From IMG/VR virus record IMGVR_UViG_3300021959_005167, positions 1-28,419 of that record: a stretch of 28,419 nt of DNA, one strand, 5' to 3'. Each line of letters begins with the position of its first letter. Within the stretch, counting starts at the first letter, position 1. A program made the position numbers and the translations under genes. The notes under the pieces are model-generated. The model was not told where the DNA came from. It worked only from the letters and a program-made list of their open reading frames with translations, and made no database searches. Positions 9,758 to 26,697 of this stretch are shown piece after piece. The stretch is from a virus.

Positions 9758-9758
9758 T

Positions 9759-10484
9759 ATGAATATATTATTGACTGGAAGTGAGGGCTTCATAGGCTCT
9801 AATTTAAAAAATAAATTAGATAATGTTACTTGTTTAGATTTAAAATTAGGTGAAGATTTATTAACATGTAAGTTACCTGATAATATAGATGTGGTAATTC
9901 ATTTAGCCGGACTATCAGGTGTAAGAATATCTTTAGACAATCCAGCTGAATATTGGAAACAAAATGTTATTGTTAGTCGAAGAATATTTGAACATTATAA
10001 AAACTCCAGAATATTATATGCAAGTTCAAGCACAGCACATGAACCATGGAGAAATCCATATGCATTTAGTAAATTTTCACTAGAACATTTTGCTCCAGAT
10101 AACAGTTTAGGTATGAGATTTACTACATCTTACGGACCTAATGGTCGGGAGAACATGTTAATACCACAAATTATCAAAGGTGTGGTGCCATATATTAATG
10201 TTGACCATAGTAGAGATTTTATACATGTGGATGACTTATGCGAAGCTATTATATTGATGATGAATACAAATGAAACAGGTGTTATTGATATGGGTACAGG
10301 AATATCAAATAAAATAGTAGATATTATGAATTATTGTAAGTTATCGTTTTCTAGTAAATTAGGACCAGAAACCGAGAGAAAAGATAATAAAGCTGACATC
10401 TCTATCTTGACTAAATATGGATGGAAACCAAAAATAAATTTGTTTCAATACTTAGATAACAAAATAGGAAAGAGGATAAACTAA
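9759..10484 (+). CDS. NAD-dependent epimerase/dehydratase (SDR)
   Basis: Extended-type short-chain dehydrogenase/reductase, the class that epimerises, dehydrates or reduces nucleotide sugars. The N-terminal NAD-binding Rossmann motif is GxxGxxG (G7, G10, G13, with FIG). HLAG at residues 48-51 and SSS at 89-91 are followed by the catalytic YxxxK (Y101, K105). At 241 residues it is shorter than the usual ~310-350, with a compact C-terminal substrate domain. A likely role is to provide an activated sugar for the glycosyltransferases downstream; this is inferred from context. It starts one base after the last virion gene, and its TAA overlaps the next ATG by one base. First gene of the enzymatic island. 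Confidence 0.8.
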   Translation: MNILLTGSEGFIGSNLKNKLDNVTCLDLKLGEDLLTCKLPDNIDVVIHLAGLSGVRISLDNPAEYWKQNVIVSRRIFEHYKNSRILYASSSTAHEPWRNPYAFSKFSLEHFAPDNSLGMRFTTSYGPNGRENMLIPQIIKGVVPYINVDHSRDFIHVDDLCEAIILMMNTNETGVIDMGTGISNKIVDIMNYCKLSFSSKLGPETERKDNKADISILTKYGWKPKINLFQYLDNKIGKRIN

Positions 10485-11005
10485 TGGAAATTACAAAAGA
10501 CAATTTTGTTTCAGCAAGATTTTGTGATAATGAAAGAACACAAATTGAGGTTTTTGTAAAAGGTGATAAAGAAAATGAAGTTTTTCCACATATCGTAGAG
10601 TTAGACGAAAATCATCCTGATTACAAAAATTTACTATCTATTCAATCATTACCCGAAATTCATCATTATACTGATAATTGGTGTAATGAACAAAGAAAAC
10701 GATTCAAAGAAGAAATGATTGATATTGCCAAACAAGAAGGCATTATCAAAGTATCTAAATCAAATGCACCGAATGTAAAAGAGGTGGAAGTTAAAATTGA
10801 TTACACACTGGAAGAATTGGTGTCGAAAATCTTTAATGACAAATTAGAGTATGATAATGAATTGATTAAAGAGCAGATGTTCAAAGCTAAACTAGCTGCA
10901 TTTGAATTGCCTATTGTGAAAGAATCAGATAATAGAGAATTAAAAGCTAAACTTAGAAAAGCAGAAACCTTTAAAGATATTATTTCATATACTTCACAAT
11001 TTTAA
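10484..11005 (+). CDS. Hypothetical acidic/helical protein
   Basis: A 173-residue protein I do not recognise with confidence. The first ~60 residues are mixed alpha/beta (MEITKDNFVSARFCDN), then a charged helical region rich in Lys and Glu runs to the end (KLRKAETFKDI). There is no signal peptide, membrane segment or cofactor motif. It sits between the epimerase (one-base overlap) and the first radical SAM gene (15-base gap). The opening vaguely recalls small proteins next to fibre genes in marine phages, so a fibre-assembly role is possible. A carrier or substrate protein for the modifying enzymes downstream is another possibility. Neither is supported by a motif. Confidence 0.6.
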   Translation: MEITKDNFVSARFCDNERTQIEVFVKGDKENEVFPHIVELDENHPDYKNLLSIQSLPEIHHYTDNWCNEQRKRFKEEMIDIAKQEGIIKVSKSNAPNVKEVEVKIDYTLEELVSKIFNDKLEYDNELIKEQMFKAKLAAFELPIVKESDNRELKAKLRKAETFKDIISYTSQF

Positions 11006-11020
11006 GGACTAAATCATGTT

Positions 11021-12202
11021 ATGTTTGACTTTGAAAAACCTTTATCATTTCATATAGAAATAACGGACAAGTGCAACGCTAGATGTGTACAATGTTCAAG
11101 AAATAGAATTAACCGGAAAGGTGAGTTAGAAGAAAGACCAGAATTGTGTCTGACCGAAATCACCATTGACAGATATAAAAAAATATTTCAAAACTACCAA
11201 AAACAAGCCAAAGCTGTATTATTCTGTGGTAACATGGGCGACCCAATGTTTGCTAAAGATATTTACGAAATATCAGAATACACATTAACTAATGTTTTAA
11301 CAGATTGGCATTTAAAAAACAAAGATGATAGTTTAAAAATTTATACTAACGGAGGTATGAGGTCTGCCAAATGGTGGTATGACTATGGTAAACTATTAGC
11401 TCCCTATAATGGTCTAGTGAATTTTGCAATTGATGGATTAGAAGACACACACCATATCTATAGAACAAATACAAGATATCATAGAGTTATAGAAAATGCT
11501 ACAGCATTTATGAAAGGTGGTGGAAGAGCTGAATGGTCATTTATTAGGTTTGGTCACAATCAACATCAAGAAGAAGAATGTAAACAAATTGCTAAAGATT
11601 TAGGATTTGTAAGATTTACTGCTGTCAATACACAAAGATTTTATGGCAAAGATAGTATTGATTATACTTGGCAAAAAAGAAATTATAGTGTAATGAGATA
11701 TCAACCTGAAAAAACGGATGTACAAGAATTTAAAGATTTAAATAGGACAGATAAGTTGTGGGACGGTAAAAAAGTTGAAGATTTATCTGCTGATGAAATT
11801 AACATACAAACAAATAAAAATCAAAATAAATTTGTTGAGGATCCTGAAAAATCAAGAAAAGAATCTGCCGGTAAAATATATTGTCATACAAAAGCAAGAA
11901 ATGATGTTTACTTAGATTGTATGGGTTATGTTCATCCTTGTTGTTGGATTGGTTCAAATGAATATCATAGAATTAATAATGTAGCTGAAAAAACAAAATA
12001 TCAACATATGGGAAACGAGATGTTAGACCATAGAGATTTAATTCCTGCATGGGAAAAAGACTTTATAGATATTCTAAAAGAAGACTGGTATCAACATATA
12101 TTACCTTTAAGTTGGGACATGTCGCCTTGTCGCATTTGTTCTAGGCAATGTGGTAAAGATAAATTTACTACAGTACGACAACATGAAGGCCTTAGAAAAT
12201 GA
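11021..12202 (+). CDS. Radical SAM protein with C-terminal Cys-rich (SPASM/twitch-like) domain
   Basis: Radical S-adenosylmethionine enzyme of 393 residues. The canonical CxxxCxxC that binds the 4Fe-4S cluster is C18, C22, C25 (DKCNARCVQC). A GNMGDP motif at 70-75 stands where GGEP-type SAM-binding motifs occur. The C-terminal third carries many cysteines (CHTK, LDCMG, HPCCW, then CRICSRQC near the end), consistent with a SPASM/twitch domain holding auxiliary clusters, as in peptide- or carbohydrate-modifying members. Substrate unknown. The ATG follows an AAGGA site. Its TGA overlaps the PP-loop gene's ATG as ATGA, so translation is probably coupled. Confidence 0.87.
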   Translation: MFDFEKPLSFHIEITDKCNARCVQCSRNRINRKGELEERPELCLTEITIDRYKKIFQNYQKQAKAVLFCGNMGDPMFAKDIYEISEYTLTNVLTDWHLKNKDDSLKIYTNGGMRSAKWWYDYGKLLAPYNGLVNFAIDGLEDTHHIYRTNTRYHRVIENATAFMKGGGRAEWSFIRFGHNQHQEEECKQIAKDLGFVRFTAVNTQRFYGKDSIDYTWQKRNYSVMRYQPEKTDVQEFKDLNRTDKLWDGKKVEDLSADEINIQTNKNQNKFVEDPEKSRKESAGKIYCHTKARNDVYLDCMGYVHPCCWIGSNEYHRINNVAEKTKYQHMGNEMLDHRDLIPAWEKDFIDILKEDWYQHILPLSWDMSPCRICSRQCGKDKFTTVRQHEGLRK

Positions 12203-12867
12203 TATATGTTCCGGATAGTGCAAAAAATATATTAATCAACCATTCTTCAGGAATGGATTCGACACTTTTAATTTATAAATTGTTAAATGAATTAAAGATA
12301 TCTCGTAAACTAGACAAAGTAAATATTTTTATTAATACAGGTGATGAACCTGTGTGTGACCCATATGCCAGCTTTAGGTCAGACAATATCTGTAAAAAAC
12401 TATTCGATAAATTTAGTTCTTCTTATACCAGATTAAAATTTATTTACACAGATGGTGAAACAAAAATACCAACTTTTAAAAGTAAAACTATAGAGTATAA
12501 ACGACAGTATAATATAGATGTTTTTTATAGAGGTATCACATTATCTCCACCTAAAGAAATACAAACAAAATATAATTATTATAAACCTGAAAGAGATGTA
12601 GACCAATTAACTCATATTACACTAGTAGGCGAAAGTTATACAATATGTCCTTGGTACAATGTAGATAAAAAATTTATTGTTTCTGAATATAAAAAAGATA
12701 GTTTCTTAATGAATGAAATATATCCGTTAACACATAGTTGTATATGTTCTGGTGATAAAACTGAAAATTGGACAAAACATTGTTCCGAAACACAAGGACC
12801 AAATGCTAAAAACTGGTGTTGGTGGTGTGTAGAAAAACAATGGGCACTTGGAGTGTTGAATGATTAA
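12199..12867 (+). CDS. PP-loop ATP pyrophosphatase, QueC-like
   Basis: Enzyme of the PP-loop ATPase superfamily, which activates a substrate carbonyl or carboxylate by adenylation. The N-terminal loop is SSGMDST at residues 16-22, a variant of SGGxDS. Length (222) and a C-terminal cysteine set (C181, C183, C195, C207, C210, with CWWC) resemble QueC of preQ0 synthesis, whose C-terminal cysteines bind zinc, but the spacing is not the QueC pattern and no QueD, QueE or FolE gene is nearby. It may adenylate a carboxylate in the pathway of the flanking radical SAM enzymes. It overlaps the upstream gene by 4 bases and the downstream radical SAM gene by 8. Superfamily assignment is firm; substrate unknown. 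Confidence 0.75.
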   Translation: MIYVPDSAKNILINHSSGMDSTLLIYKLLNELKISRKLDKVNIFINTGDEPVCDPYASFRSDNICKKLFDKFSSSYTRLKFIYTDGETKIPTFKSKTIEYKRQYNIDVFYRGITLSPPKEIQTKYNYYKPERDVDQLTHITLVGESYTICPWYNVDKKFIVSEYKKDSFLMNEIYPLTHSCICSGDKTENWTKHCSETQGPNAKNWCWWCVEKQWALGVLND

Positions 12868-14089
12868 GCCTTACTGTACTTTACCTTTTGTACAATTTTC
12901 AACTACAGTTGCTGGTAATTATCAGGCATGTTGTATTGCTAAAAAACAATCAGAAAATATTGTTGATGTATCGCCTATGGACTTTTTCAATGGTAAACAT
13001 ATGAAACAATTGCGATATGATATGTTGAAACCTGGTGAACCTACTGACTTAATTAAAGACACTTGTTATAAGTGTATAGCAAATGAAAAAAACTCAGGCA
13101 ATTCAAAAAGATTACAAAATTACTACACAACAAATTTAGATAAAACAAATACATTAAAACAAAGAACATTAGAAAAAATAAAAGACGACAAAAATGTAGA
13201 CTTGGAACCTACTGATATGGACTCTTTTAAAATTAAGATATTTGGAAATTTGTGTAATTTAAAATGTACTATGTGTAATCCTCTAGTATCATCAAAAATA
13301 GCAGCTGAACAAAAAAGATTGGGTACTTTGCCTAGAGATTGGAAAGGACCAATTATAATAGACCAATCTAAAAAAATGGATATGGATAAGTTTAGAGATG
13401 ACTTAAAGAAAATATTACCTACTACTAATCAAATAGAAATTGTAGGTGGCGAACCATTATTATATCCTAAAGTTGCAGGATTTGTACAATGGATTGTTGA
13501 CAACAATATGTCAAGACATTTAGAGTTGAGATTTGTAACCAATGGCATGACTGAAAATTTTGAGTTGTTTGCTTTATTTAAATATTTTAGAAAAGTGACC
13601 ATAATGTTTTCTATTGATGGTGTTGGCAAGATTGATGAATATATAAGAACCGGAACTATATGGGAACAAAAAGTTGAAACTATGAAAAACATAGGTCAAA
13701 TTCCTAAAGTAAAACTATCTTTCAGTACAACAGTTCAATTATTAAACATTGGATACTTAGATGAAATTCACACCTTTGTGAAAGATACATTTGGTATGCA
13801 AGCAAAATTAAATAATAATCTTTCTTTTCCTGTGTGGGCTAGAGCAGTTAATGTTCCTAAAGATGTGTCTGAAATGTATATTAAAAAATATAGTAACAAA
13901 AAATTCTATAATATGGCTCACCATATACACACTTTAAGAAACGATAAAGAAAGAAATGATACTAGATTTTTAGACGCTATGGATAGATACAGGTATCTTG
14001 ATAGTATTAGAGATACAAATTTGTTAGATGTTTATCCAGAGTTTGAAAAATGGTATATTAATGCAAAGGCAACACCATGGTCTCTATAG
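12860..14089 (+). CDS. Radical SAM protein with N-terminal Cys-rich (twitch-like) domain
   Basis: Radical SAM enzyme of 409 residues. The cluster motif CxxxCxxC is C132, C136, C139 (LCNLKCTMC), and GGEP, the SAM-contact motif, is at 196-199. An N-terminal ~100-residue domain has its own cysteines (C6, C24, C25, C69, C72), resembling a SPASM/twitch domain placed before rather than after the barrel. I recall such twitch-type radical SAM proteins in marine viral and bacterial genomes. Function is unknown; modification of a peptide, sugar or small molecule is plausible. It overlaps the PP-loop gene by 8 bases and the first glycosyltransferase by 13. Confidence 0.86.
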   Translation: MIKPYCTLPFVQFSTTVAGNYQACCIAKKQSENIVDVSPMDFFNGKHMKQLRYDMLKPGEPTDLIKDTCYKCIANEKNSGNSKRLQNYYTTNLDKTNTLKQRTLEKIKDDKNVDLEPTDMDSFKIKIFGNLCNLKCTMCNPLVSSKIAAEQKRLGTLPRDWKGPIIIDQSKKMDMDKFRDDLKKILPTTNQIEIVGGEPLLYPKVAGFVQWIVDNNMSRHLELRFVTNGMTENFELFALFKYFRKVTIMFSIDGVGKIDEYIRTGTIWEQKVETMKNIGQIPKVKLSFSTTVQLLNIGYLDEIHTFVKDTFGMQAKLNNNLSFPVWARAVNVPKDVSEMYIKKYSNKKFYNMAHHIHTLRNDKERNDTRFLDAMDRYRYLDSIRDTNLLDVYPEFEKWYINAKATPWSL

Positions 14090-14679
14090 TAACTGCTTTC
14101 TGGGGAGACAAGTATAGTGTAGATGATTTAAAAAAATTACCAATTGATTTTTGTTTTTCTGATAGAGAAATACCTGGTATAAAAACTTTTCCTATTGATA
14201 TGAGTTACAAACACACCTGGAAAAAAATGACATTATTTGATAAGAGGTTAAATCTAGGCGATTGTTTATTTTTAGATATAGATATCATTATCCAAGGTGA
14301 CCTAAATATTCTTATTGACTATTATAAAAAGAATAAAGTCAAAGGTAAAGTTATGTTAAGTCATGTACATTGGTTTGATAATGAAAAGATGAAAAAAAAT
14401 AAGTCAACATATACATCTTGTAATGTAAATAGTGGTGTGTTTGCATTTAATAATGATGAGTGCGACCACATTTATCAAGCAGTTGAAAAAGATAAAGAAA
14501 AATTATCAATGTTATTTGAAGGCACAGATAAATGGTTTTATCATGTTCATAAAGATTGGTATACTTTTTGGCCAGACAAATATGTACAACATGCTATACA
14601 TAACTTTGAAAAATTTGATAGAAAGAAAGCGATTATATTAAGTGAAAATGGAAGAGCCGAAGGTAGAAATAAAATTTAA
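14077..14679 (+). CDS. Glycosyltransferase-like protein (DxD)
   Basis: A 200-residue GT-A type glycosyltransferase-like protein. Hallmark: LGDCLFLDIDIIIQGD, with D67 and D69 forming the DxD metal/nucleotide-sugar site after a hydrophobic strand. The N-terminus (MVSIVTAFWGDKYS) fits the first beta strand of the nucleotide-binding fold. It is shorter than typical GT8-like enzymes (250-300). It is the first of four related DxD proteins in tandem and the most divergent in length. It probably transfers a sugar from a nucleotide sugar to a glycan or protein acceptor. It overlaps the radical SAM gene by 13 bases and the methyltransferase gene by 32. Confidence 0.7.
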   Translation: MVSIVTAFWGDKYSVDDLKKLPIDFCFSDREIPGIKTFPIDMSYKHTWKKMTLFDKRLNLGDCLFLDIDIIIQGDLNILIDYYKKNKVKGKVMLSHVHWFDNEKMKKNKSTYTSCNVNSGVFAFNNDECDHIYQAVEKDKEKLSMLFEGTDKWFYHVHKDWYTFWPDKYVQHAIHNFEKFDRKKAIILSENGRAEGRNKI

Positions 14680-15322
14680 TTATGATTTAGGTCTTTTTGG
14701 TGATACACTAAACAGAGTTGTATTACGAGAATATCCACATAGATTAAAAGACTTCATCAATAGTTTTTCAGGCAATCAAGTTACTTGTAAAAAGTGGTTG
14801 ATAGAGCAACTACTTTTAGTATTAAAAGATAAGCCTAACATATCAACTAGAAAAATTACCGTATTAGGTTCGTGGTATGGCAATGTATTAGTACCTTTGA
14901 TTGTTGACAATATAAAAGGTGTTGAAGATATACAATTAATTGACATGGACGAAGACGCTTTAGATATAGGTAGAAAGTTTTTAGGTAGAAGTTATAATGA
15001 TGTTAATATTAATTATATAAAAGAAGATATTAATTTTATAGATTATTCTCAAAGATATACAAACATTTGTATTAATACATCTTGCGAACATATGTTTCCT
15101 ATGTCGTCAATATCTTTTTCAAATGATAAACAAGTATTATATATCTTACAATCAAACAACATGAAAGATGAAAGAGAACATGTAAATTGTGTTGAAGATT
15201 ACTATGAATTGATGAAACAATCTGATATTACAAAACCTTATTATTATAGTAGATTAAAATTAAAAGGTAGAAACAATAAAGAATACAAAAGATTTATGGT
15301 GATTGGTAAAAGAAATGACTAG
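14648..15322 (+). CDS. Class I SAM-dependent methyltransferase-like protein
   Basis: A 224-residue protein with a Rossmann-type SAM-binding core: motif I appears as VLGSWYGN (residues 72-79), followed one strand later by an acidic IQLIDMDEDALDIGR (95-109), the usual ribose-binding position. Sequence after residue 180 is basic and helical. I chose ATG 14648; a GTG at 14642 would add two residues. Either way the start lies 32-38 bases inside the preceding glycosyltransferase, and the stop overlaps the next start by 8 bases (ATGACTAG). It sits between glycosyltransferases, so methylation of a sugar is a reasonable guess; the acceptor is not identifiable. Confidence 0.65.
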   Translation: MEEPKVEIKFNYDLGLFGDTLNRVVLREYPHRLKDFINSFSGNQVTCKKWLIEQLLLVLKDKPNISTRKITVLGSWYGNVLVPLIVDNIKGVEDIQLIDMDEDALDIGRKFLGRSYNDVNINYIKEDINFIDYSQRYTNICINTSCEHMFPMSSISFSNDKQVLYILQSNNMKDEREHVNCVEDYYELMKQSDITKPYYYSRLKLKGRNNKEYKRFMVIGKRND

Positions 15323-16028
15323 TATTTGTACACTACTAAAAAAAGGACCAAAATATGGTACTAAAGATGTAAATAATATTTTTAGAAGTTTGAAGAAACA
15401 CACGACTAAGCCTTTTAAGTTTTATTGTTATACAGATTATGATACTGAGTTTTTAGATGAAGATATAAACATTATTGAGTTAGAAAATGATGATAAAAAA
15501 CTACAATGGTATAAGTTAGATTTTTTTAAAAAAGGTATTGTTAAAGAAGAAGATATTATATTGATGGATATTGACCAAGTCATAATTAGAAATTGTGATT
15601 TTTTATTTGATGATATTGAAGATAATGAATTTAGAGGCACACATAGATTTTGGTGGAGATGGAGAGAAGATAAAGAAAATAAAAAGTTTGCATTGAGTGG
15701 TAGCATATACAAATTCAAAAATGGTGAACATCAATACATTTCTGACAAATTTGAAAAAGATATTGACTATTGGCAAGAATATTTTATTAAAAATGGTACA
15801 ACAAGTGGACCTGTAAATGGCGAACAACACTTTGTACAAAAGATGTTAGAAGATAACAAAACTAAAACCTCAATGTTTCCTGAAAAACATATTGTAAAGT
15901 GGCATGAAAATGACTTTTATATACAAACATGCATTGAACATGATTATAAAAAATGGTCGGGTAATCCATATCTATTAGATGAAGATTGGCACACAGATGT
16001 AAAGGTAATTCATTATGCCGGAAATTAA
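15315..16028 (+). CDS. Glycosyltransferase-like protein (DxD), paralogue A
   Basis: A 237-residue GT-A type glycosyltransferase-like protein. The N-terminal pattern (YGTKDVNNIFRSLKKHTTKP, then FYCYTD) and the DxD strand IILMDIDQVI (D85, D87) are typical of small alpha/beta glycosyltransferases. A later block, IYKFKNGEHQYISDKF, then DIDYWQ and NGEQHFV, is clearly shared with the protein at 16698-17255, so the two are paralogues. A TTG four codons upstream (15303) is possible, but the ATG at 15315 forms the usual 8-base stop/start overlap. It overlaps the next gene by 14 bases. Donor and acceptor unknown. Confidence 0.72.
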   Translation: MTSICTLLKKGPKYGTKDVNNIFRSLKKHTTKPFKFYCYTDYDTEFLDEDINIIELENDDKKLQWYKLDFFKKGIVKEEDIILMDIDQVIIRNCDFLFDDIEDNEFRGTHRFWWRWREDKENKKFALSGSIYKFKNGEHQYISDKFEKDIDYWQEYFIKNGTTSGPVNGEQHFVQKMLEDNKTKTSMFPEKHIVKWHENDFYIQTCIEHDYKKWSGNPYLLDEDWHTDVKVIHYAGN

Positions 16029-16701
16029 TTGGAATACTCCTGTTGATGTTTATTGTGTTAATGTAGGGGAAAAATACGGACCTGAATATGTGTTTAAACT
16101 TAAATCAGCTGTTGAAAGACATTTAACTCAACCTCATAATTTCTGGTGTATCACAGATAAACCTGAATTATATCCTTTTTCTATAAAATCAGATGATTTA
16201 CCAGGTTATTGGAGTAAAATATCTGTATTTAAATATACTGGTAGATGTTTATATTTTGATTTAGATGTTATTATACATGGAGCAATAGACGAATTAGCTA
16301 TGACAACAGGAAATTTTCATATGATTTTACCGTTATGGAAAGACCCCAGAAAAGCAAAGTTTGTTTCTGATAGACCAGATATAGGTACATCTCTACATAA
16401 CTCCTCGGTAATGAATTGGAATGATAGTAGAGAAATATACAATAAATTTATGAAAGACCCCGAATATTATATATTTAAATATAAGGGTGATGACAGATTT
16501 TTAACACACGAAACAGAACCAAAAACTTTTCCTACTAAAAAAAGGCCACCTATAATATACTCATATAGAGATGGTGCTCATTATAATGATGACAATGAAT
16601 CTTTTAAATATCGTAAAGAATATTCTGTAGCTTTGTTTCATCAAAAACCTGAAATACATGATTGTTTAGAACATGATATTGTTAAGGAAAACTGGATATG
16701 A
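16015..16701 (+). CDS. Glycosyltransferase-like protein (DxD)
   Basis: A 228-residue GT-A glycosyltransferase-like protein. The opening (VDVYCVNVGEKYGPEYVFKL) and WCITDKPE are characteristic of bacterial glycosyltransferases of this type, and the DxD is in LYFDLDVIIHG (D82, D84). SSVMNWN at about residue 130 and a late LFHQKPEIHD segment complete the catalytic half. It is related to its neighbours but less closely than the 15315 and 16698 pair are to each other. It overlaps the upstream gene by 14 bases and the downstream one by 4 (ATGA). It likely acts in series with the other three on one glycan; that is inferred from gene order. Confidence 0.75.
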   Translation: MPEINWNTPVDVYCVNVGEKYGPEYVFKLKSAVERHLTQPHNFWCITDKPELYPFSIKSDDLPGYWSKISVFKYTGRCLYFDLDVIIHGAIDELAMTTGNFHMILPLWKDPRKAKFVSDRPDIGTSLHNSSVMNWNDSREIYNKFMKDPEYYIFKYKGDDRFLTHETEPKTFPTKKRPPIIYSYRDGAHYNDDNESFKYRKEYSVALFHQKPEIHDCLEHDIVKENWI

Positions 16702-17255: not shown

Positions 17256-17259
17256 TAAT

Positions 17260-18670: not shown

Positions 18671-19463
18671 GACAATTCAAGACATTAGAGGTCTTGATGA
18701 CGGACATATAAGACAATTAGCAAGAGATATACACCAAGACGGTGTAGCTGTAATCTATAATCAAAATCTAAAAGAAAGTGATTATATTTATTTTATGAAA
18801 AGATTTGGTGAATGTGAATCACCTGATTTGTTTATGAATCCAAAAGAACATCCAGAAATCTTTTTAGTCACAGGTAAAAAAGTTGACGGTAAGAAAATTG
18901 GTATGTTTGGTGATACAGAGTTAGGTTGGCATTCAAATGGTAATTCAAGACATTTGATTGATAAGATATTAATTGGATTGTATTGTGTTAAAGAAGACAT
19001 TAATACCACATTAAGTGTATGTAATACTTCTAAACCTTTTTATGATATGTCTAAAGATGAACAAGAGTATTATCGTTCTATTACAATCAGATTAAAATTT
19101 AAAAACAATACAATATATGACTTAGAAGAGGGTGACCCAGAGTTAGAATTTATGAGTAAAAATAAAGGTAGTATTCGTAAGTTGGTAGATGTACACCCAC
19201 ATAACATGTCAGAATATTTTTACTTTCCATACCACTTTATTTGTAAAGCATGGGAAGGCAAAAAACAAATTGACCATGAAGAGTTAATCAGTAAATTAAA
19301 ACCAAAGATATTTAAATCACAGTATCAATATCACCACATATTTAAAGAGGGTGATTTACTTCTCATGGACCAATTTACAAGTTTACACCGTAGAACACCT
19401 GTTATGGATAACAATCGTTTACTATGGCGAATAGCATCGGATTTTAACAATGTTTACAAGTAA
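18654..19463 (+). CDS. TauD/TfdA-like Fe(II)/2OG oxygenase, copy 1 (HxN variant)
   Basis: A 269-residue protein of the TauD/TfdA clavaminate-synthase-like group, which couples 2-oxoglutarate decarboxylation to hydroxylation or other C-H chemistry. The N-terminal part (HIRQLARDIHQDGVAVIY, then FGECESP) matches the TauD opening. The proximal metal motif is WHSNG: H93 is present, but the usual Asp two residues on is Asn (N95). The distal His is H245 (MDQFTSLHRR), and the 2OG-binding Arg is R255 or R259 (RLLWRI). An AAGGAAG site precedes the ATG, and the gene overlaps the PLP gene by 17 bases. A second copy with the same HxN lies at 21470-22351. The fold is clear; whether the altered ligand changes the chemistry is open. 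Confidence 0.82.
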   Translation: MIQPHKTIQDIRGLDDGHIRQLARDIHQDGVAVIYNQNLKESDYIYFMKRFGECESPDLFMNPKEHPEIFLVTGKKVDGKKIGMFGDTELGWHSNGNSRHLIDKILIGLYCVKEDINTTLSVCNTSKPFYDMSKDEQEYYRSITIRLKFKNNTIYDLEEGDPELEFMSKNKGSIRKLVDVHPHNMSEYFYFPYHFICKAWEGKKQIDHEELISKLKPKIFKSQYQYHHIFKEGDLLLMDQFTSLHRRTPVMDNNRLLWRIASDFNNVYK

Positions 19464-20058
19464 AGAAGTACCTTGGCCAAAGATAGGCACCATGACCGGT
19501 GAAATACCTATGAAAAGAAGATATGCATTAAGAGATATGTCTTATCTTGACACACTAGAGGCAAGGCCTATTTTTGAAAAACAAGCCGATATTATCATTA
19601 AAAACAATTACAAAGGTATTGTTGATATAGGTTGCAGGCATGGACCTGTAAATGATTTTCTACATGAAAAGTCTTATAAAGATTATCAGTATTATGGTTT
19701 TGACACCTCACCTGAACCTATTGAATATGCACAAAAACGGTGGCCAAACTATCAATACGAAGTTAGAGATTGGGCAACATTAAAAGATGTTAACTTCAAA
19801 GTAGATTGTATAATTTTTAGTGGTGTTTTATTGTATGAAAAAGACCATTATAAAATGTTCACAAACATAATGAAATTTTATGATTGCAAAAATGCGATTA
19901 TACAAGAGCCATATCACGAACAAACATATTATGAAGAAAAATTAAAATTAAAATCAATCACAAATGATATGCAACAATATAATTTTAAAGAAAAGACTAT
20001 TGTAGAGGCAGAAATATTTTGTGGTAAAAGATTGGTAGGTGAAGTATCATATGAATAA
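19450..20058 (+). CDS. Class I SAM-dependent methyltransferase-like protein
   Basis: A 202-residue protein with a Rossmann SAM-binding core. Motif I is VDIGCRHG (58-65). The acidic residue of the next strand is in YYGFDTSPEPIEYAQKRW, a good motif II, and IIFSGVLLY provides the post-II strand with the following hydrophobic turn. The first ~45 residues form a separate lead-in with an Arg-rich patch (MKRRYALRDM). It lies between the first TauD-like gene (14-base overlap) and the first flavin reductase-like gene (8-base overlap, ATGAATAA), so it is probably part of the same pathway. Acceptor unknown. Confidence 0.78.
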   Translation: MFTSKEVPWPKIGTMTGEIPMKRRYALRDMSYLDTLEARPIFEKQADIIIKNNYKGIVDIGCRHGPVNDFLHEKSYKDYQYYGFDTSPEPIEYAQKRWPNYQYEVRDWATLKDVNFKVDCIIFSGVLLYEKDHYKMFTNIMKFYDCKNAIIQEPYHEQTYYEEKLKLKSITNDMQQYNFKEKTIVEAEIFCGKRLVGEVSYE

Positions 20059-20689
20059 GATTGTAGCAGTAAATTTTAGTAATGCTTCTAACTCTATGCA
20101 AGGTAGAGGTTTAAAACTTTTAGATAAATTTATTCCATTTTACAAAGTTATTAATTTAAGAGATTTTTGTATACCTGTATTAGATAGTAACATGGCTGAT
20201 GGTAATGTACCTGATAGTGTAATAGAGTTTGACAAGGCATTAATTGACGCAGACGCTTATGTTTTTTGTGTTGCTGAATTCATGGGTGGATATTGTGGAC
20301 AATTTAAGAATGCTATGGATTGGTTAGTTGTAAAAACAAACTATGATAAAGATTTAAATATACCTTATAGTATCAGTCATAAACCAATGTTTAGTGTTAC
20401 ATTTTCACCTAGTAATAAAAATGGTGGTAGACATGCAAATATGATGAAAGACTTATTAAAAAATTTTCAAGTTGTAAACCACGGCCATATTGTATTTAAT
20501 CATGGTTGGGAAAAATGTGTTCCAGGCAACTATGAATGGGTAAAAGAAGACGCTGAAAATATGAATAAAGTATTATCAGAACCTTATGAAAAGAAAAACA
20601 AAATTACTGAACATACGGATGTAAGAACAATATGTAAATGGATTCATTTGTATGAAGAGTGGGATAAAAAATGGCAAGATATAGAATAG
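20051..20689 (+). CDS. NAD(P)H-dependent FMN reductase-like flavoprotein, copy 1
   Basis: A 212-residue flavodoxin-fold protein of the NADPH-dependent FMN reductase group. The N-terminal strand and phosphate loop (IVAVNFSNASNS) are followed by the family signature DADAYVFCVAEF, then GQFKNAMDWLVV (residues 67-94), and by KPMFSVTFSPSNK with a Gly/His segment. I chose ATG 20051, which gives the 8-base ATGAATAA overlap; a GTG at 20039 is less likely. Members reduce free FMN or use bound FMN to reduce substrates such as azo compounds or quinones. It could supply reduced flavin or electrons to a partner enzyme in the island. A paralogue is at 22341-22967. Confidence 0.8.
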   Translation: MNKIVAVNFSNASNSMQGRGLKLLDKFIPFYKVINLRDFCIPVLDSNMADGNVPDSVIEFDKALIDADAYVFCVAEFMGGYCGQFKNAMDWLVVKTNYDKDLNIPYSISHKPMFSVTFSPSNKNGGRHANMMKDLLKNFQVVNHGHIVFNHGWEKCVPGNYEWVKEDAENMNKVLSEPYEKKNKITEHTDVRTICKWIHLYEEWDKKWQDIE

Positions 20690-21486
20690 TAAAGAATATA
20701 GATGAAAAATTGCCTGGTGATGATATACAAAAATATATTGACAGAGAAAATCCAGAAAATCCTGAACATACTAAGGTAAATTATAATAATCATTATAATG
20801 GTTATAAAGGTGTTGTATGGACACCATTAGATGTACCTTATGTAAATTTAGATTTAGATTTGATGTGGAAAAGATGGACAAGTATTAATGATAAAAAACA
20901 TGTATGGTTTGACAAAGACAAATCTGATATTAATAGTTCAAGACATAGTACATATATTAATCACGACTACAGAGCATTAATGTTATTTACGAATGGTGCA
21001 TATTATGGAGATGTTAAAGGTGAGTGGTGTGACTTTGTACATGATGAGTTTCCAGATGTAGTAAAATTTATTGATTCAATGCCCTATGATAATGTAAGGT
21101 GGTTGGCATTTGTGGGTAGAGATACACACGGTGTTGGTCCCCATTATGATGAATACGATAAGGCAAGAGAAGATTTAAAATACCAAGAACCTAGTCAAGT
21201 TAGAGTTAGGTGGAGTAAAGTTACTGATTGGGAAAAAGAACATTTATATTTTACAAAAGACCATGCTCAAACAAGAATATATCCTATGTTGCCACCAGAA
21301 ACAAATGCTATGGCATATGACGGTACAGTACATGAACATGGAGCGGACGCAGGTTACCACCCTACAAAAAGAATTCAATTAATGCCAATGGGTACTTTAA
21401 ATATTCCTAAATGGCATGATTTGTTAGAACGAAGTATAGAAAAATATAAGGATTATGTAATAACAAAAGATGATTTTACAAAATAA
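20671..21486 (+). CDS. Fe(II)/2OG oxygenase-like (cupin/AspH-type fold)
   Basis: A 271-residue protein whose second half looks like a double-stranded beta-helix oxygenase. Proximal ligands are H158 and D160 in GVGPHYDEYD. A distal His is H221 or H223 (GTVHEHG), with R234 (TKRIQLMP) at the 2OG-binding place. The first ~100 residues are rich in Trp, Tyr and Asp and not recognised. It overlaps the upstream FMN reductase-like gene by 19 bases and the downstream TauD-like gene by 17. Substrate unknown. It is not close in sequence to the TauD-like pair, so it is an independent member of the superfamily. A non-enzymatic cupin is the main alternative. Confidence 0.62.
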   Translation: MARYRIVKNIDEKLPGDDIQKYIDRENPENPEHTKVNYNNHYNGYKGVVWTPLDVPYVNLDLDLMWKRWTSINDKKHVWFDKDKSDINSSRHSTYINHDYRALMLFTNGAYYGDVKGEWCDFVHDEFPDVVKFIDSMPYDNVRWLAFVGRDTHGVGPHYDEYDKAREDLKYQEPSQVRVRWSKVTDWEKEHLYFTKDHAQTRIYPMLPPETNAMAYDGTVHEHGADAGYHPTKRIQLMPMGTLNIPKWHDLLERSIEKYKDYVITKDDFTK

Positions 21487-22351
21487 AAAATTAGAATCAA
21501 TAGACCCTATTGACGCAAATAAAATGGTTGCTGAGCATGGTTATTTGGTGATTGAAAATAGTGGTGCAAGTCCTGAAGAATTTGCAGAATGGAATCTTGC
21601 ATTTGGTTATCATATAAGTCCTGATATTTGGTGTACCGATAAGAAACATAGTGAATACTTTTGGCGTGTAACAAATAAAAAGATAGACGGAGAAAATCAA
21701 GGTCTATTTGCAGATGATGAATTGGATTGGCACAGTAATTTGGTACCTCATGCTGATGCTCAAGAAGTTATAGGTTTGTATGGTAAAACAATAACATATG
21801 ATACCGAAACATGGATATGTACTAGTATTCCTTATATGAAAAAATTAAGTGCAAAAACTAAAGAGTTATATAAAAGTTTATACACTAAATTAAATCATTC
21901 GGGTGGTATTCCTATAAATCAACCATGGAAACCTGATTGGGATAAAAAATATACTGATACAGTTTTAAACGGTATAAAACAAAATAGAAATAAAAGTAGA
22001 GCTGATTTAGTTGATAAAAGATTTAAAGAGTGGCGAGGTGTATTAGATAAACATAGACTAGTACCAAATCATCCTTTAGGTATTGAGGGTATATTTTTTC
22101 AACCTTATGAAATTACAGAATTTGTCGGTTTGTTAAACTTTTCTCACAAAGAATTATATAATGAAATATATAAAGACTTTATAACTGACAAGTACACTTA
22201 TAAACATAAATGGAAACCTGGTGATATTTTATTAATGGACCAGTTAACAACCATTCATAGACGGCCTACGATAGCAAAAGACCAAACTAGAGAATTATTG
22301 AGGTCAGCATGTTGGTATAAAAATAGGAATCATTTTGAATATGTCTTGTAA
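21470..22351 (+). CDS. TauD/TfdA-like Fe(II)/2OG oxygenase, copy 2 (HxN variant)
   Basis: A 293-residue paralogue of the protein at 18654-19463. Conserved stretches include FGYHISPDIW (against FGECESPDLF in copy 1), VTNKKIDGENQGLFADDEL, and the metal motif WHSN with H88 and N90, again Asn instead of Asp. The distal His is H263 (MDQLTTIHRR), and R278 (LLRSACW) is the likely 2OG ligand. A middle insertion of about 25 residues relative to copy 1 is rich in Lys and Arg. It overlaps both neighbours (17 and 11 bases). Like copy 1 it is followed by an FMN reductase-like gene, which suggests duplication of the pair. Confidence 0.82.
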   Translation: MILQNKKLESIDPIDANKMVAEHGYLVIENSGASPEEFAEWNLAFGYHISPDIWCTDKKHSEYFWRVTNKKIDGENQGLFADDELDWHSNLVPHADAQEVIGLYGKTITYDTETWICTSIPYMKKLSAKTKELYKSLYTKLNHSGGIPINQPWKPDWDKKYTDTVLNGIKQNRNKSRADLVDKRFKEWRGVLDKHRLVPNHPLGIEGIFFQPYEITEFVGLLNFSHKELYNEIYKDFITDKYTYKHKWKPGDILLMDQLTTIHRRPTIAKDQTRELLRSACWYKNRNHFEYVL

Positions 22352-22967
22352 AATTTCAGCATTTAGTTTTAGTAATAACTTAGATAGTATGAATAGTAAA
22401 GGTCTTCTAATGATGGATGACCATATTAAATTTCATGTATGTAAATCTATGTGTGATTATAATATGAAACTGATTGATACAAATGATGTTGATGGTAAAG
22501 TTGATGATGGTATAAATCAATTTGATAAAGATTTGCATGACACAGATGTTTTTGTTTTTGCTGTTCCTGAACACACAGGCCATTATTCAGCAGTTTTTAA
22601 AAATGCGTTAGATTGGTTAGTTGTAAAATCTAACATGAATAATAATCTAGGAACATCATACGGATTTTCACATAAACCTATAATACTAATTACATTTACA
22701 CCATCAAAAAAGGCTGGTAATAGACACTTTGACATGACTAAACACTTATTAGAAAAAATGGGTGGTAATGTTGTAAAGAGCTTTGTAAAAAATGATTGTT
22801 GGGATAATCTGTATCGAGAAAACATGAGTTTCATAAGTGAAGAATGTAAATATATTAATGAATTCAAAAAAGATTTGGTGACCATTGAAAAACATGAATC
22901 AAAACAATGGAAAAATAAAGATGATATGATAAGTTCATATAATAATTGGAAAGATAAATGGAAGTAA
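22341..22967 (+). CDS. NAD(P)H-dependent FMN reductase-like flavoprotein, copy 2
   Basis: A 208-residue paralogue of the protein at 20051-20689, sharing ISAFSFSNN at the phosphate loop, DTDVFVFAVPEHTG, then FKNALDWLVVKSN (residues 86-98), and KPIILITFTPSKKAGNRHFD. The second loop has PEHTG where classic members have PEYN. A TTG at 22335 would add two residues; the ATG at 22341 is preferred. The tail (about 40 residues) is Lys- and Trp-rich, as in copy 1 (YNNWKDKW against YEEWDKKW), which supports recent common ancestry. It overlaps the next gene by 10 bases. Confidence 0.8.
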   Translation: MSCKISAFSFSNNLDSMNSKGLLMMDDHIKFHVCKSMCDYNMKLIDTNDVDGKVDDGINQFDKDLHDTDVFVFAVPEHTGHYSAVFKNALDWLVVKSNMNNNLGTSYGFSHKPIILITFTPSKKAGNRHFDMTKHLLEKMGGNVVKSFVKNDCWDNLYRENMSFISEECKYINEFKKDLVTIEKHESKQWKNKDDMISSYNNWKDKWK

Positions 22968-23539
22968 AAAGATATTCAGAAAACCCTAATGAGTATTGGC
23001 CATTGATTGAAAAGTTTAGACAACAATCATTTAAAGAGGGTAATAATAGTATCGGTTATGATAAGTATGACCCCGATAATAAAGACATAGAAACATGGAT
23101 GTGTTTTAAAGATAATAAATTAATATCAATATCAGCTGCTGAAAAATCTCATTATACAAATGACCCTAATATTGCAGTAAGAGTATGTCGTTATCATATA
23201 CTAAAGAAATATAGATTTAGTCATTGTGGTTTGATTATGGGAGAACATCAAATCAAGTGGTCAAGAGATAAAGGATTTAAGATATTATATATTACACATG
23301 ACATAAAAAACAAAGCCATAAATAACCTTTATCAAAGAAGAAAACAAATGACAGATAAGGCATTTAAAGAACATATAAATGGTGAGTGGTACACAAAATT
23401 ACAAGTAGAGAAGAATTTTTTATTTAAGACTGGTGATATGTTGCAATATGTTTATAGCATAAGACTACAAGAGAATTATGATTGGCAACCTAAATCAGAT
23501 TATATAATTGAGAGGAAACATGATGGACAAATTATCTAA
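22958..23539 (+). CDS. GNAT-like N-acetyltransferase (tentative)
   Basis: A 193-residue protein with the layout of GCN5-related acyltransferases. A beta-rich N-terminal half (TWMCFKDNKLISISAAEK) leads to a strand/loop RVCRYHILKKYRFSHCGL, a helix EHQIKWSRDKGFK and a strand ILYITHD (110-115), then KNKAINNLYQRR, the usual C-terminal pattern of residue number and neighbour helices. The acetyl-CoA loop (R/QxxGxG/A) is not clearly present; HCGLIMG at 89-95 is the nearest place, so the assignment is tentative. It may acylate an amino group, such as one placed by the aminotransferase-like enzyme; that link is speculative. Confidence 0.5.
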   Translation: MEVKRYSENPNEYWPLIEKFRQQSFKEGNNSIGYDKYDPDNKDIETWMCFKDNKLISISAAEKSHYTNDPNIAVRVCRYHILKKYRFSHCGLIMGEHQIKWSRDKGFKILYITHDIKNKAINNLYQRRKQMTDKAFKEHINGEWYTKLQVEKNFLFKTGDMLQYVYSIRLQENYDWQPKSDYIIERKHDGQII

Positions 23540-24137
23540 ACACAGTTTACCTACTGTAAAAGAATTAAATCTTAATATAGATTTAGATAAGTTAAGAAAA
23601 GCTACAGATGAGTTGGCTGAAAAGTTTACAGATGTGAGGTCTGCTAATCCTATGTTATGTATGAATCATGAGGAATTAGTTAAAGATGTTTATGATAACT
23701 TTGAACAAATCAACTTAACTACACCTAGTGAGATATTACCTCACACCACTAGTATTAAAGAAAGATTGAAAAGAAGAGAAGAACATTTATATAATGTACC
23801 TACAGATGATTATAAAGGTAGTTATTTTGAGGAGATTGTTACACAATGTAAATCACCAGCAAGTAGAATTAGAATTACAAAATTAGCACCAGGTAAAATG
23901 ATACCATGGCATGTTGATTATGATGTATCATATGGTGTAAGAGTAATTGTTCCTATCTATGGTGACAATAATGTTATTAACCTATTTAAAAGAAATAATA
24001 AAATAGAAGCTTACAATCTTAAAAACGGAGTTGCCAATTTCTTGAATATAGGTTATACTCACGGTGTCGTGTCTATGAGTAAAAAGGCTAGGATAGCTTT
24101 AATGTTTACTTTAGATGGCACTAAAGATATTCTGTAA
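23520..24137 (+). CDS. Aspartyl/asparaginyl beta-hydroxylase-like 2OG oxygenase
   Basis: A 205-residue protein with a compact AspH-type jelly roll. RIRITKLAPGKMIPWHVDYD contains the proximal ligands H131 and D133. VRVIVPI follows, then FLNIGYTHGVVSMS with the distal H181 and RIALMF with R191 at the 2OG-binding position. All expected residues are present, so it is the most complete of this subtype here. The first ~90 residues are helical and charged. An AGAGGA site precedes adjacent ATGs at 23520 and 23523; either could be used. It overlaps the GNAT-like gene by 20 bases. It ends the plus-strand chain and overlaps the convergent minus-strand gene by 17 bases. Confidence 0.8.
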   Translation: MMDKLSKHSLPTVKELNLNIDLDKLRKATDELAEKFTDVRSANPMLCMNHEELVKDVYDNFEQINLTTPSEILPHTTSIKERLKRREEHLYNVPTDDYKGSYFEEIVTQCKSPASRIRITKLAPGKMIPWHVDYDVSYGVRVIVPIYGDNNVINLFKRNNKIEAYNLKNGVANFLNIGYTHGVVSMSKKARIALMFTLDGTKDIL

Positions 24138-24804
24138 ATATACTCAACCCTAATTTTTTACCTTTAAAGTTACTTCCACAATGCAATCTTACACAATCAA
24201 AAACAATTGCATTACCAGGTCGCCATGCGTGAGCGGAGTTAAAACTTAAACCTTTCAACCATTTATCTTCTAAATGAGTTAGATACTTTTCTTTCATTAT
24301 AGTATCAAATGGTATATTTGATTTGCCTACAACATTTTCATAATCATATACAATAGTGTTGTAAAAGGTTTCTATATTTTCTTCACCGTTAAAAAACTTA
24401 CTAGGTCCGTCAAGATATACTTGGTCAAAAAAACACAAATATGGTTCTTCTTTTGTGTCATACTCTAAGGGTATATTAAAGGCTTTATATGTTAGTGGTA
24501 AACTATGTTTATCGTCATTGTGTATGATATGTGGTTGTTTTACTTCAAAAAACATACCAGACATTACTTTACTATTAGGATAAAATTTAGATATTTTATC
24601 TATAATTTTGTTTAGTGTTGGCGAGTCATAATGTTTTATATCAGAGGTTATAGGTCCTGTATTTTTGTAAACTTTATTAATATTACCATAGTATTCCATA
24701 CTTAATGTTTCTATATCTTCTTTTGATATAAAATTTTCTATATAGTATGTTTCTTCTAAATTTGATAATATGAAATCTTTATGTTCTTGCGACCTAGTGG
24801 GCAT
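24121..24804 (-). CDS. 2OG-Fe(II) oxygenase-like protein, minus strand
   Basis: A 227-residue protein in the prolyl-hydroxylase/PhyH-like style. FFEVKQPHIIHNDDKH has H95 and D97 as proximal ligands, and AFNIPLEY follows. The terminal block HAWRPGNAIVFDCVRLHCGS has the distal H208, followed by GKKLGLSIFTEYL. Position K217 stands where an Arg normally binds 2-oxoglutarate. I chose the ATG at 24804, which overlaps the upstream minus-strand gene by 11 bases; a TTG at 24819 is an alternative. Substrate unknown. The N-terminal ~80 residues are helical and charged. Confidence 0.75.
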   Translation of the reverse strand: MPTRSQEHKDFILSNLEETYYIENFISKEDIETLSMEYYGNINKVYKNTGPITSDIKHYDSPTLNKIIDKISKFYPNSKVMSGMFFEVKQPHIIHNDDKHSLPLTYKAFNIPLEYDTKEEPYLCFFDQVYLDGPSKFFNGEENIETFYNTIVYDYENVVGKSNIPFDTIMKEKYLTHLEDKWLKGLSFNSAHAWRPGNAIVFDCVRLHCGSNFKGKKLGLSIFTEYL

Positions 24805-25501
24805 GTTGTAAATTAGCAATTAAAGCTGTTACATTCTCCGAAGTGAATGGTACATTAATAATTAAATGTGTACTGTTTTTAGACCAACTCATAGTTCTAT
24901 GTACTCTTTTTGTATTTACATAATATGGTCTGCCATGTTCAATTAACATTTTCTCATGGCCATGTATCCAATCGAATTGCATAGGACCACAATCTTGCAA
25001 AAACACAGCTATTCTAAATGAATCTCTAGGCATAGTTGGATGGTCTCTATGTGGATGAAAGTAAGCGCCCTCGCCACATTTTACTAAAAAGGTTCTGCCT
25101 AAAGTAGGAAATATATTTAAAAGTGGGTGTAAACATTCTAACTTATTATAAACTTTAGTAGGTACATTAAACTCTGCCTCATTGACATATCTATTCGCCT
25201 CTACACACGCTTGTGCTAAACTAGGATTGTCTTGATGAGTTTTGCCTGGTAAATTTAAAAGAGATAGTGCTTTACGATTATTAATCTTATCGGTTCTAGG
25301 TAAATAATCTACCCAATCGTTTTCAAATTCTTTAATTTGTTTTGAGTATTGACCACAATTAACTTTTACCTTTAGGCCTTCCCAATCACCTAAACTTAAC
25401 AACGCTACTTCATTGGCTAGAGTTTCACAATCTACTTTTTTCGCATTAAATTTTACTGACTGACCACTTACACCTGGTTTCACTATTACATTATCTGTCA
25501 T
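24794..25501 (-). CDS. AspH-like 2OG oxygenase-like protein, minus strand
   Basis: A 235-residue protein. GAYFHPHRDHPTMPRDSFR carries an HxD (H151, D153) and a basic patch typical of aspartyl/asparaginyl hydroxylase-like folds. IAVFLQDCGP and the late VNTKRVHRTMSW contain the probable distal H201. The position expected to hold the 2OG-binding Arg reads STHLIINVP, with His (H212) in its place, so cofactor use is uncertain. A strong AGGAGA site stands before the ATG. It overlaps the nitroreductase-like gene upstream and the other oxygenase-like gene downstream by 11 bases each, so the three minus-strand genes form one operon. Confidence 0.72.
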   Translation of the reverse strand: MTDNVIVKPGVSGQSVKFNAKKVDCETLANEVALLSLGDWEGLKVKVNCGQYSKQIKEFENDWVDYLPRTDKINNRKALSLLNLPGKTHQDNPSLAQACVEANRYVNEAEFNVPTKVYNKLECLHPLLNIFPTLGRTFLVKCGEGAYFHPHRDHPTMPRDSFRIAVFLQDCGPMQFDWIHGHEKMLIEHGRPYYVNTKRVHRTMSWSKNSTHLIINVPFTSENVTALIANLQHAH

Positions 25502-26087
25502 AATATTCTCCTATACTATTATTTATGCGTTCACCTTGTACACCATTTCCTAGGTCATATCCCATTTCTACACCATCTTTGAATACTTTTCTAGTAGGTT
25601 CGGTATCAATTTTGTCAGCATATCCTAAACCTAATAACATATGTACATGAGTTTCGCCTATTTTTTGTCCTAACTCTCTCGATTCTAAACAACCATTGAA
25701 CCCGGTATTTAAACCTATATCTTCAGCGGCCAGTAATGCAGTTGTTGAGCTGACCATGATATCTTCTATGACTTCTAAATTATTTTTTTCAGAAGCCCAT
25801 GCTAAGACAATAGGTGCTAACACCTGTCCATTGTATCTTCTTAAACCGTTACCTTTAGCGCCTCTAATTTTATTCAAACAATATGTGTGTTCCCAATATA
25901 ACCAATCTTTTATTTGTTTGCATTTTTTCGTTTCATCAAATATCAAAACTTTGTAATTGTATTTTAGTTGTTTTGAAGGAGACCTATATATACAGTCTAA
26001 TACATAATCGAGTTTATGTTGTTCTACCTCTTTTTTTGACCACCATTTTGTAGTGTAACGAAGTTTTAATAACGATTTTACAGACAT
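25491..26087 (-). CDS. Nitroreductase-family flavoprotein-like protein
   Basis: A 198-residue protein resembling FMN-dependent nitroreductases. The N-terminal basic/aromatic segment RYTTKWW (10-16) and YVLDCIYRSPSKQL (28-41) match the opening helix and FMN-phosphate region of the family. MVSSTTALLAAEDIGLNTGFNGC (111-133, given as a region) is the core helix and loop seen in most members, and LLGLGYAD (151-158) is near the C-terminal strand. Members reduce nitro groups or quinones, or oxidise/dehydrogenate substrates (for example azoline oxidation in peptide natural products). First gene of the minus-strand trio. Only a weak ribosome-binding site is visible and GATAAATA lies just upstream. Confidence 0.72.
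   Translation of the reverse strand: MSVKSLLKLRYTTKWWSKKEVEQHKLDYVLDCIYRSPSKQLKYNYKVLIFDETKKCKQIKDWLYWEHTYCLNKIRGAKGNGLRRYNGQVLAPIVLAWASEKNNLEVIEDIMVSSTTALLAAEDIGLNTGFNGCLESRELGQKIGETHVHMLLGLGYADKIDTEPTRKVFKDGVEMGYDLGNGVQGERINNSIGEYYDR
25520..25527 (-). promoter_or_regulatory. Possible late promoter, CATAAATA (minus strand)
   Basis: One mismatch to TATAAATA, 19 bases upstream of the ATG of the minus-strand oxygenase gene at 25501 and inside the nitroreductase gene. It could drive the two oxygenase-like genes separately. Chance occurrence is not excluded. Confidence 0.3.
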
Positions 26088-26681: not shown

Positions 26682-26697
26682 TTCAACTCTTTTTTGT

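Follow-up and report, generated by a model that had tools for sequence, protein, structure and literature searches.

A conserved, shuffled and mobile oxygenase cassette with His-x-Asn TauD-family proteins in the putative host recognition cluster of a SAR11-type phage

In pelagimyophages, the region from VrlC to gp14 forms a host recognition cluster (HRC) that is hypervariable, averages 44.6 kb, and contains fibers and glycosyltransferases; radical S-adenosylmethionine (SAM) cassettes in it mark out two genomes (Zaragoza-Solas 2020, PMC7029224; here and below, statements about cited papers apply to the parts accessible to us). The same study lists an aspartyl/asparaginyl hydroxylase as core to all pelagimyophages, and a stearoyl-CoA desaturase and a 2-oxoglutarate (2OG) protein in a freshwater group. 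We analyzed the virus record IMGVR_UViG_3300021959_005167 over its whole length of 28,419 bases (the window), in which an island of 23 genes, i01 to i23, lies among tail genes. The nearest isolate is Pelagibacter phage Mosig EXVC030M (MT647606), whose isolation host was P. ubique HTCC1062 (PMC7892664) and which was the sole megablast match among 50,697 phage records (85% identity, 26% of the query). Nearly half of the island, i11 to i20 (positions 17260 to 24137), is a cassette that is conserved in content, shuffled in gene order and mobile; its core is formed by a desaturase, a pyridoxal phosphate (PLP) enzyme and an AspH-type oxygenase, usually joined by a TauD-family protein with a His-x-Asn motif and a methyltransferase.

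The island shares its position and general contents with the HRC: it starts after a gene whose product is 56% identical to Mosig VrlC, in the same gene order, and it holds glycosyltransferases and radical SAM proteins beside fibers in a region that varies between relatives. On gene order and content, we assign it to the HRC of a SAR11-type, T4-like phage, that is, to a known class. The tail proteins of the window are 56 to 95% identical to those of Mosig, which suggests that the host is SAR11 or a relative; for the tail protein encoded at 8825 to 9757, Mosig provided the one match among the phage records. An enzyme island in a tail cluster is therefore not new, because the HRC has been described and Mosig (2021) carries an island at the same place. 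The first-pass annotation had held that the combination and density of the enzymes were new; given the known island class (PMC7029224) and the comparable Mosig island, what stands of this claim is the anatomy of the cassette. The accessible text on the HRC does not describe a conserved 2OG/PLP/TauD/methyltransferase cassette (PMC7029224).

Relatives of cassette genes were collected from the best 80 of 86 viral relatives of the desaturase and the best 80 of 166 relatives of i20; the scans made with a single protein, among them those for the desaturase, i04 and i05, detect close relatives only. Fifteen of the 80 desaturases were distant (30 to 33% identity), and loci with such desaturases (L069-L083) were left out before grouping. 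Including loci from TauD, PP-loop and radical SAM scans, 162 loci gave 43 dereplicated groups, in which gene presence was scored at identity thresholds that we set. A desaturase-like protein, the PLP enzyme and i20 were found together in 29 of the 33 groups holding i20 (relaxed desaturase threshold); in the four exceptions, the contig is cut off partway through the module. All five core genes were present in 13 of 16 groups with i20 and 7 kb on both sides of it, as well as in 14 of 17 desaturase-anchored groups; the desaturase was detected in 13 of the 16 i20-anchored groups at 60% identity and in all 16 at 25%. Where the five core genes were on one locus (24 groups), they occurred in seven orders, with a median span of 5.0 kb. 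Often, the core genes were accompanied by flavin reductases, a GNAT-like protein, additional 2OG proteins or a peroxiredoxin, and the surroundings varied: the cassette lies beside fibers or, in some phages, beside genes that by eye are of replication type. A T4-type major capsid protein, Gp23, was detected in 5 of 16 records searched; in one (L020 record G291, 110962 to 112079), the match was broken over several frames with stops, unlike the other four. We also observed a shorter variant (L180, L187 and L195), in which a divergent desaturase, the PLP enzyme and i20 lie side by side, and a 415-amino-acid cassette neighbor (L046, 14806 to 16050) with a weak LanC-like match under the cutoff.

Comparison of i11-i23 with loci L012 and L009 gave 25 dN/dS ratios, from 0.055 to 0.342, with dS close to 1 in many cases (saturated pairs below 40% identity were excluded), arguing that these genes are under purifying selection. 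Among the 50,697 phage records, i13, i20 and i11 each matched only Mosig at E 1e-5, and neither i13 nor i20 had a match among 72,556 plasmid records. Our literature search, judged mostly by title and not extending to subscription papers, found no published phage cassette like i11-i20, nor any earlier description of a conserved cassette with His-x-Asn TauD proteins and counterparts in Bdellovibrionota; we consider this combination new.

All genes in the cassette are on the plus strand. The core gene i11 (17260-17910) encodes an SCD-type membrane desaturase (PF00487, 39.2 bits; cutoff, 29.7) that matches acyl-CoA desaturase structures (E 4e-6). Ten positions of its histidine boxes (H27, H32, H64, H67, H68, N157, H161, H182, H185 and H186) are invariant in 16 of 16 sequences and presumably equal the metal ligands of stearoyl-CoA desaturase. 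A second core gene, i12 (17885-18670), encodes a compact PLP enzyme of fold type I, as judged from its predicted structure (AF2 pLDDT, 89.6); the nearest folds in Foldseek, at E values from 1e-8 to 1e-7, were Trp aminotransferase (E 1.6e-8), HisC and alliinase, and its score against class I/II aminotransferases (PF00155) was 15.8 bits, under the cutoff of 19.7. K152, D124 and R160 are invariant in 19 of 19 i12 sequences, and K152 is probably the PLP lysine. The third, strongly conserved core gene, i20 (23508-24137), encodes an AspH-type 2OG oxygenase: it scored 16.9 bits against the aspartyl/asparaginyl hydroxylase family (PF05118), under the cutoff of 22.6, and its predicted structure (AF2 pLDDT, 86) is a double-stranded beta-helix with an HxD...H...R motif, whose HVD..H..R residues are invariant in 14 of 14 sequences. 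A search of the PDB by sequence gave no meaningful relative of i20 (best E, 0.097), so its relatives come from fold comparison. The nearest solved fold was Cpz10 (PDB 7V4F/7V4M; Z 18.9 over 158 residues), followed by human AspH (Z 14.9), two proline hydroxylases (Z 14.8 and 13.4) and PHD2 (Z 14.7); no LpxO structure was among the i20 fold lists. Cpz10 is the caprazamycin beta-hydroxylase, whose substrate and triad have been reported (PMC9814697). i20 shares its fold and His-x-Asp...His triad but is only 20% identical to it, nothing in the data points to nucleoside synthesis by the phage, and such a likeness in a predicted fold does not fix the substrate. Caprazamycin-type liponucleoside clusters have an SHMT-like (serine hydroxymethyltransferase-like) transaldolase beside oxygenases; none of the 23 island genes matched SHMT in Pfam at E 0.1, a difference from clusters of that type.

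The remaining cassette genes include the usual core partners, i13 (18654-19463) and i14 (19450-20058). The former encodes a TauD-family protein with His-x-Asn instead of His-x-Asp (PF02668, E 2e-20; 74.5 bits; cutoff, 27), and the latter encodes a SAM methyltransferase (PF13649, over the cutoff); i17 (21470-22351) encodes a second TauD-family protein with His-x-Asn (PF02668, E 2e-19; 71.1 bits against the same cutoff). Two genes, i15 (20039-20689; E 5e-17) and i18 (22335-22967; E 6e-15), encode NADPH-FMN reductases (PF03358). A probable 2OG oxygenase is encoded by i16 (20671-21486), which had no family match in profile searches but has an HxD..H..R motif by eye and recurs with the cassette. 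Finally, i19 (22958-23539) encodes a GNAT-like acyltransferase whose Acetyltransf_1 match is under the cutoff and which is 84% identical to Mosig_00073, annotated as an N-acetyltransferase. DNA hypermodification was considered as well, but profile matches named no DNA-modification enzyme among the 23 genes, 10 of which were covered by a further search; for i14, PHROGs gave a weak match, to a tRNA methyltransferase.

TauD-family enzymes bind iron through His-x-Asp/Glu and a distal His. While i13 and i17 score well above the TauD/TfdA cutoff, neither has the His-x-Asp/Glu ligand pair: the cassette TauD proteins are of three kinds, with WHSNG, WHANG or WHSNL motifs, and WHSNGNSR is present in 16 of 16 aligned i13-type proteins. 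At the ligand positions of 66 distinct phage sequences, we found H,N,H in 61, H,N,gap in 1, and H,D,H in 2, with 2 unreadable; hence, 62 of the 64 readable sequences have Asn and 2 have Asp. The two Asp-bearing sequences are relatives of i17 and fall within a single group of near relatives. The distal His and Arg are kept. Among 30 control TauD proteins from Bdellovibrionota, counted with a second alignment method (the first placed 5 of 30), 24 have HxD, 2 HxE and 2 HxN, and 2 were unreadable; both HxN controls are in cluster-bearing genomes. The Asn could be a neutral iron ligand, could leave room for another ligand, or could reflect lost activity. Our literature searches listed no paper on a His-x-Asn TauD group.

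With the TauD alignment as query, a collection of genomes from 84,980 species yielded four loci, L121-L124. The first, from a Paceibacter metagenome-assembled genome, is a short contig and probably phage; the other three belong to Bdellovibrionota. Only 3 of 290 Bdellovibrionota genomes gave strong matches, and these were the same three; 2 gave weak ones, so the bacterial cluster is rare. The three genomes (G001, G002 and G003) all carry relatives of the desaturase, the His-x-Asn TauD protein, AspH and radical SAM proteins, and two of the three carry a relative of the PLP enzyme; the best TauD protein in each is 33 to 61% identical to i13. They differ from the phage cassette in their bacterial context and in having additional genes: HTTM (G003), VanZ (G002) and further radical SAM proteins. 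Locus L135/L136 has all five core families near what by eye are aromatic-amino-acid biosynthesis genes; L138/L139 has relatives of TauD, AspH, PLP, GNAT, desaturase, radical SAM and PP-loop proteins near an EF-Tu gene (also by eye); and L140 has relatives of TauD, AspH, desaturase and radical SAM proteins. These clusters are on contigs without recognizable phage genes, and a radical SAM protein from L139 shares 65% identity with one from phage locus L043. In a FastTree phylogeny of i20, which includes non-close relatives (L011, L046-L048 and L135_11525), the main phage group excludes the bacterial relatives from G001 and G002, together with that of phage L110 (branch support was not read). The Bacteriovoracaceae cluster at L135 also contains, at 17292 to 19410, four adjacent paralogs of 175 to 177 amino acids that are related to a 174-amino-acid phage cassette protein and, from a motif seen by eye, are probably small 2OG oxygenases.

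The island as a whole consists of 20 open reading frames (ORFs) on the plus strand (9759-24137) and three on the minus strand (24121-26087), encoding 173 to 409 amino acids. Overlaps occur at 17 of the 19 plus-strand junctions, the two gaps being 15 and 4 bases, and these genes are arranged as in one operon. ORF coordinates and flanking profile matches bear out the proposal that 23 intact genes sit between tail genes: the flanks match gp8-like baseplate wedge (PF09215, phrog_438) and DUF4815 (phrog_358) on the left and phrog_1084/3304 and a fiber gene downstream. To the left, on the plus strand, are the VrlC-type baseplate gene that serves as the HRC landmark (1340-7615; DUF4815, PF16075, E 9e-62) and a pair of tail genes with which the virion genes end ahead of the island (7834-8805 and 8825-9757; products 66 and 74% identical to those of Mosig genes at the same place). 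To the right, a small ORF of 68 codons near 26133, read by eye, has Mosig_00071 as its counterpart at the same place, and plus-strand tail-fiber genes resume at 26340-28419 (85 to 95% identical to Mosig; phrog_1084, phrog_8745). The GC content in 1-kb steps is 25.5 to 33.7% within 10001-26000 versus 31.6 to 39.3% outside 9001-26000. A chimera of phage and bacterial DNA, raised earlier as a concern, was ruled out because other contigs span both junctions: L006/L120 (95% over 1001 bases) and L012 (71%) on the left, and L005 (100%), L143 (97%), L088, L146 and L009 on the right. The island is therefore not a misassembly.

The left half, i01-i10, is a lineage-specific set that is mostly replaced in Mosig. 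Its conserved left edge is i01 (9759-10484), an NAD-dependent nucleotide-sugar epimerase (PF01370, E 1e-21; phrog_540) that is 61% identical to its Mosig counterpart at the same place and is common elsewhere, with matches in 43 of the 50,697 phage records, many of them cyanophages. The one gene listed initially as unknown, i02 (10484-11005; 31% identical to Mosig_00095), may belong to the tail side rather than to the enzyme set, because in L055 a 27% identical relative directly follows the tail gene with no epimerase between them. It is followed by a radical SAM protein, i03 (11021-12202; PF04055 over the cutoff, phrog_21308); a PP-loop ATPase-like protein, i04 (12199-12867; SSGMDS motif by eye, weak TilS match); and a twitch-type radical SAM protein, i05 (12860-14089; NF033640, 274 bits; cutoff, 170). 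In the single-protein scans, i04 had 2 close viral relatives and i05 had three. Next are a GT8-like glycosyltransferase, i06 (14077-14679; PF01501 over the cutoff, phrog_1962); a weakly supported methyltransferase-like protein, i07 (14642-15322; Spermine_synth under the cutoff, 30% identical to Mosig_00090, "putative methyltransferase"); and three small glycosyltransferase-like proteins, i08, i09 and i10 (15303-16028, 16015-16701 and 16698-17255; phrog_1962, E 6e-8 to 8e-12). All are on the plus strand. On the minus strand, at 24121-26087, lie i21 (2OG-like), i22 (AspH/2OG-like) and i23 (nitroreductase-like, just under the cutoff), the first two recognized from motifs by eye; i22 is 32.5% identical to the product of a Mosig gene annotated as a 2OG oxygenase. 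An adjacent i21-i22 pair occurs in 10 of the 43 groups, and in 5 of those 10, i23 is also close by; these genes are possibly a second mobile block.

Family support, which we graded by Pfam cutoff, PHROGs, fold or motif by eye, is uneven across the island. The epimerase, both radical SAM proteins, i06, the desaturase, both TauD proteins, i14 and both FMN reductases score above Pfam cutoffs, whereas i07, i12, i19, i20 and i23 fall under profile cutoffs. The initial inventory was thus right overall, but with several assignments under a cutoff or motif-only: of six proposed 2OG oxygenases, three hold by profile or fold, the others (i16, i21 and i22) by motif alone or mainly so; and of four glycosyltransferase-like proteins, i06 exceeds a Pfam cutoff while i08-i10 have PHROGs matches only.

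The Mosig island, compared by tblastn (rows from the window pieces L002 and L003, identified by 99 to 100% identity or by their coordinates, were excluded), has the same edges: the left tail gene, epimerase and i02, and the right fiber genes. Its desaturase, PLP enzyme, TauD protein, methyltransferase, GNAT protein and AspH are 78 to 94% identical to those of the window. It differs in its middle, where it has DegT, carbamoyltransferase and MoaA-type genes, as well as a peroxiredoxin; no Mosig orthologs of i16, i17, i21 or i23 were found by tblastn, and Mosig has other nitroreductases. Mosig also carries a second 2OG oxygenase block before its neck genes (L001, 35609 to 40694), with ferrochelatase, heme oxygenase and a phycocyanobilin oxidoreductase-like gene. 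Seasonal phages have been reported to be enriched in 2OG oxygenases and ferrochelatases, which is not this cassette (PMC11561400).

What might the cassette do? We tentatively favor, at slightly less than even likelihood, a pathway that tailors a small molecule or lipid headgroup derived from an amino acid and linked to the membrane, lying beside the lineage-specific glycan set. In the infected cell, an amino-acid-derived unit would be hydroxylated by i20 and i16, handled by the PLP enzyme i12, N-acylated by i19 and methylated by i14; the TauD-type proteins would oxidize it, the flavin reductases (with peroxiredoxin in relatives) would manage redox, and the substrate of the desaturase would be an acyl chain in the membrane, either linked to this unit or its partner. 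We would expect the product to be a small molecule or lipid headgroup associated with the membrane, and the glycan layer may separately decorate the cell surface. That this is one pathway, its product class and the order of its steps we infer from co-inheritance, intact metal and PLP sites (the TauD Asn excepted), selection and bacterial relatives. The co-occurrence of the core genes, their varied orders and contexts, purifying selection, the bacterial clusters, the Cpz10-like i20 fold and the invariant desaturase site all support such a pathway, and the natural-product-like character suggested in the first-pass annotation is strengthened because a subset of the island is co-inherited as a unit. 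The presence of a nitroreductase and of a radical SAM protein of the twitch type led us to consider, in addition, a ribosomally synthesized and post-translationally modified peptide (RiPP) pathway.

Several observations weigh against a tailoring pathway. Co-occurrence speaks for joint use, not for reaction order; the i20 fold also resembles those of protein hydroxylases (human AspH, Z 14.9; PHD2, Z 14.7); i12, i19 and i20 score under Pfam cutoffs; and the His-x-Asn TauD proteins might be inactive. Nor is the gene set uniform: by our thresholds, L178, L180, L187, L195 and L196 lack i13 and i14, L046-L048 lack i20, and L054 has a desaturase without close matches to other cassette genes. The i19-type GNAT-like protein occurs in only 5 of the 16 i20-anchored groups; 8 others carry a second family that is GNAT-like by eye and unrecognized by Pfam, and our group counts for GNAT pool both families.

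A less likely but serious rival, mainly for the left half, is that during infection the whole island remodels host surface glycan or lipopolysaccharide lipid to block co-infection. Changes to the O-chain would come from the glycosyltransferases, epimerase, methyltransferase and acyltransferase; acyl chains would be altered by the desaturase and the AspH-type oxygenase, as they are by LpxO-type enzymes. The island does contain four glycosyltransferase-like genes and an epimerase, and glycan remodeling has been proposed in print as the role of this region's glycosyltransferases (PMC7029224). However, the kinds of glycosyltransferase that we searched for accompany the cassette in only 6 of the 17 desaturase-anchored groups, and the nearest solved i20 folds, from lists that contained no LpxO structure, act on amino-acid-type small molecules or proteins. 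We regard it as improbable that unrelated auxiliary genes merely gathered at a recombination hot spot and share no pathway: the left half does differ between relatives, and pelagiphage 2OG oxygenases occur both singly and grouped (PMC9599517), but the same core recurs jointly in varied orders and contexts and has bacterial counterparts. Least likely is modification of virion proteins, chiefly of the adjacent tail fibers by hydroxylation and then glycosylation, for which the position within the tail gene cluster of both the window and Mosig and the known use of 2OG oxygenases with glycosyltransferases in protein modification would speak; this idea, also raised in the first-pass annotation, is disfavored, particularly for the right half, because clustered relatives lie on Bdellovibrionota contigs without recognizable phage genes and some cassettes adjoin replication-type genes, and a membrane desaturase and TauD-type proteins would be unexpected in it.

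A bolder form of the tailoring pathway, which we put forward as doubtful, is that one mobile natural-product pathway is common to marine phages and a few Bdellovibrionota, and that in it the 2-His-1-Asn iron site of the TauD proteins performs new chemistry (for example, an altered oxidation, or use of an open site like that of a halogenase), yielding a membrane-active product during infection. Whatever its chemistry, the His-x-Asn TauD group poses a separate and simple biochemical question. An odd, enzyme-rich island thereby becomes a defined and testable unit: a five-gene core in many uncultured phages, several of them T4-like, that is also present in one cultured phage, Mosig, which grows on a cultured SAR11 strain. 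If the cassette does make a molecule, phages that infect very abundant ocean bacteria would have a secondary metabolism of their own.

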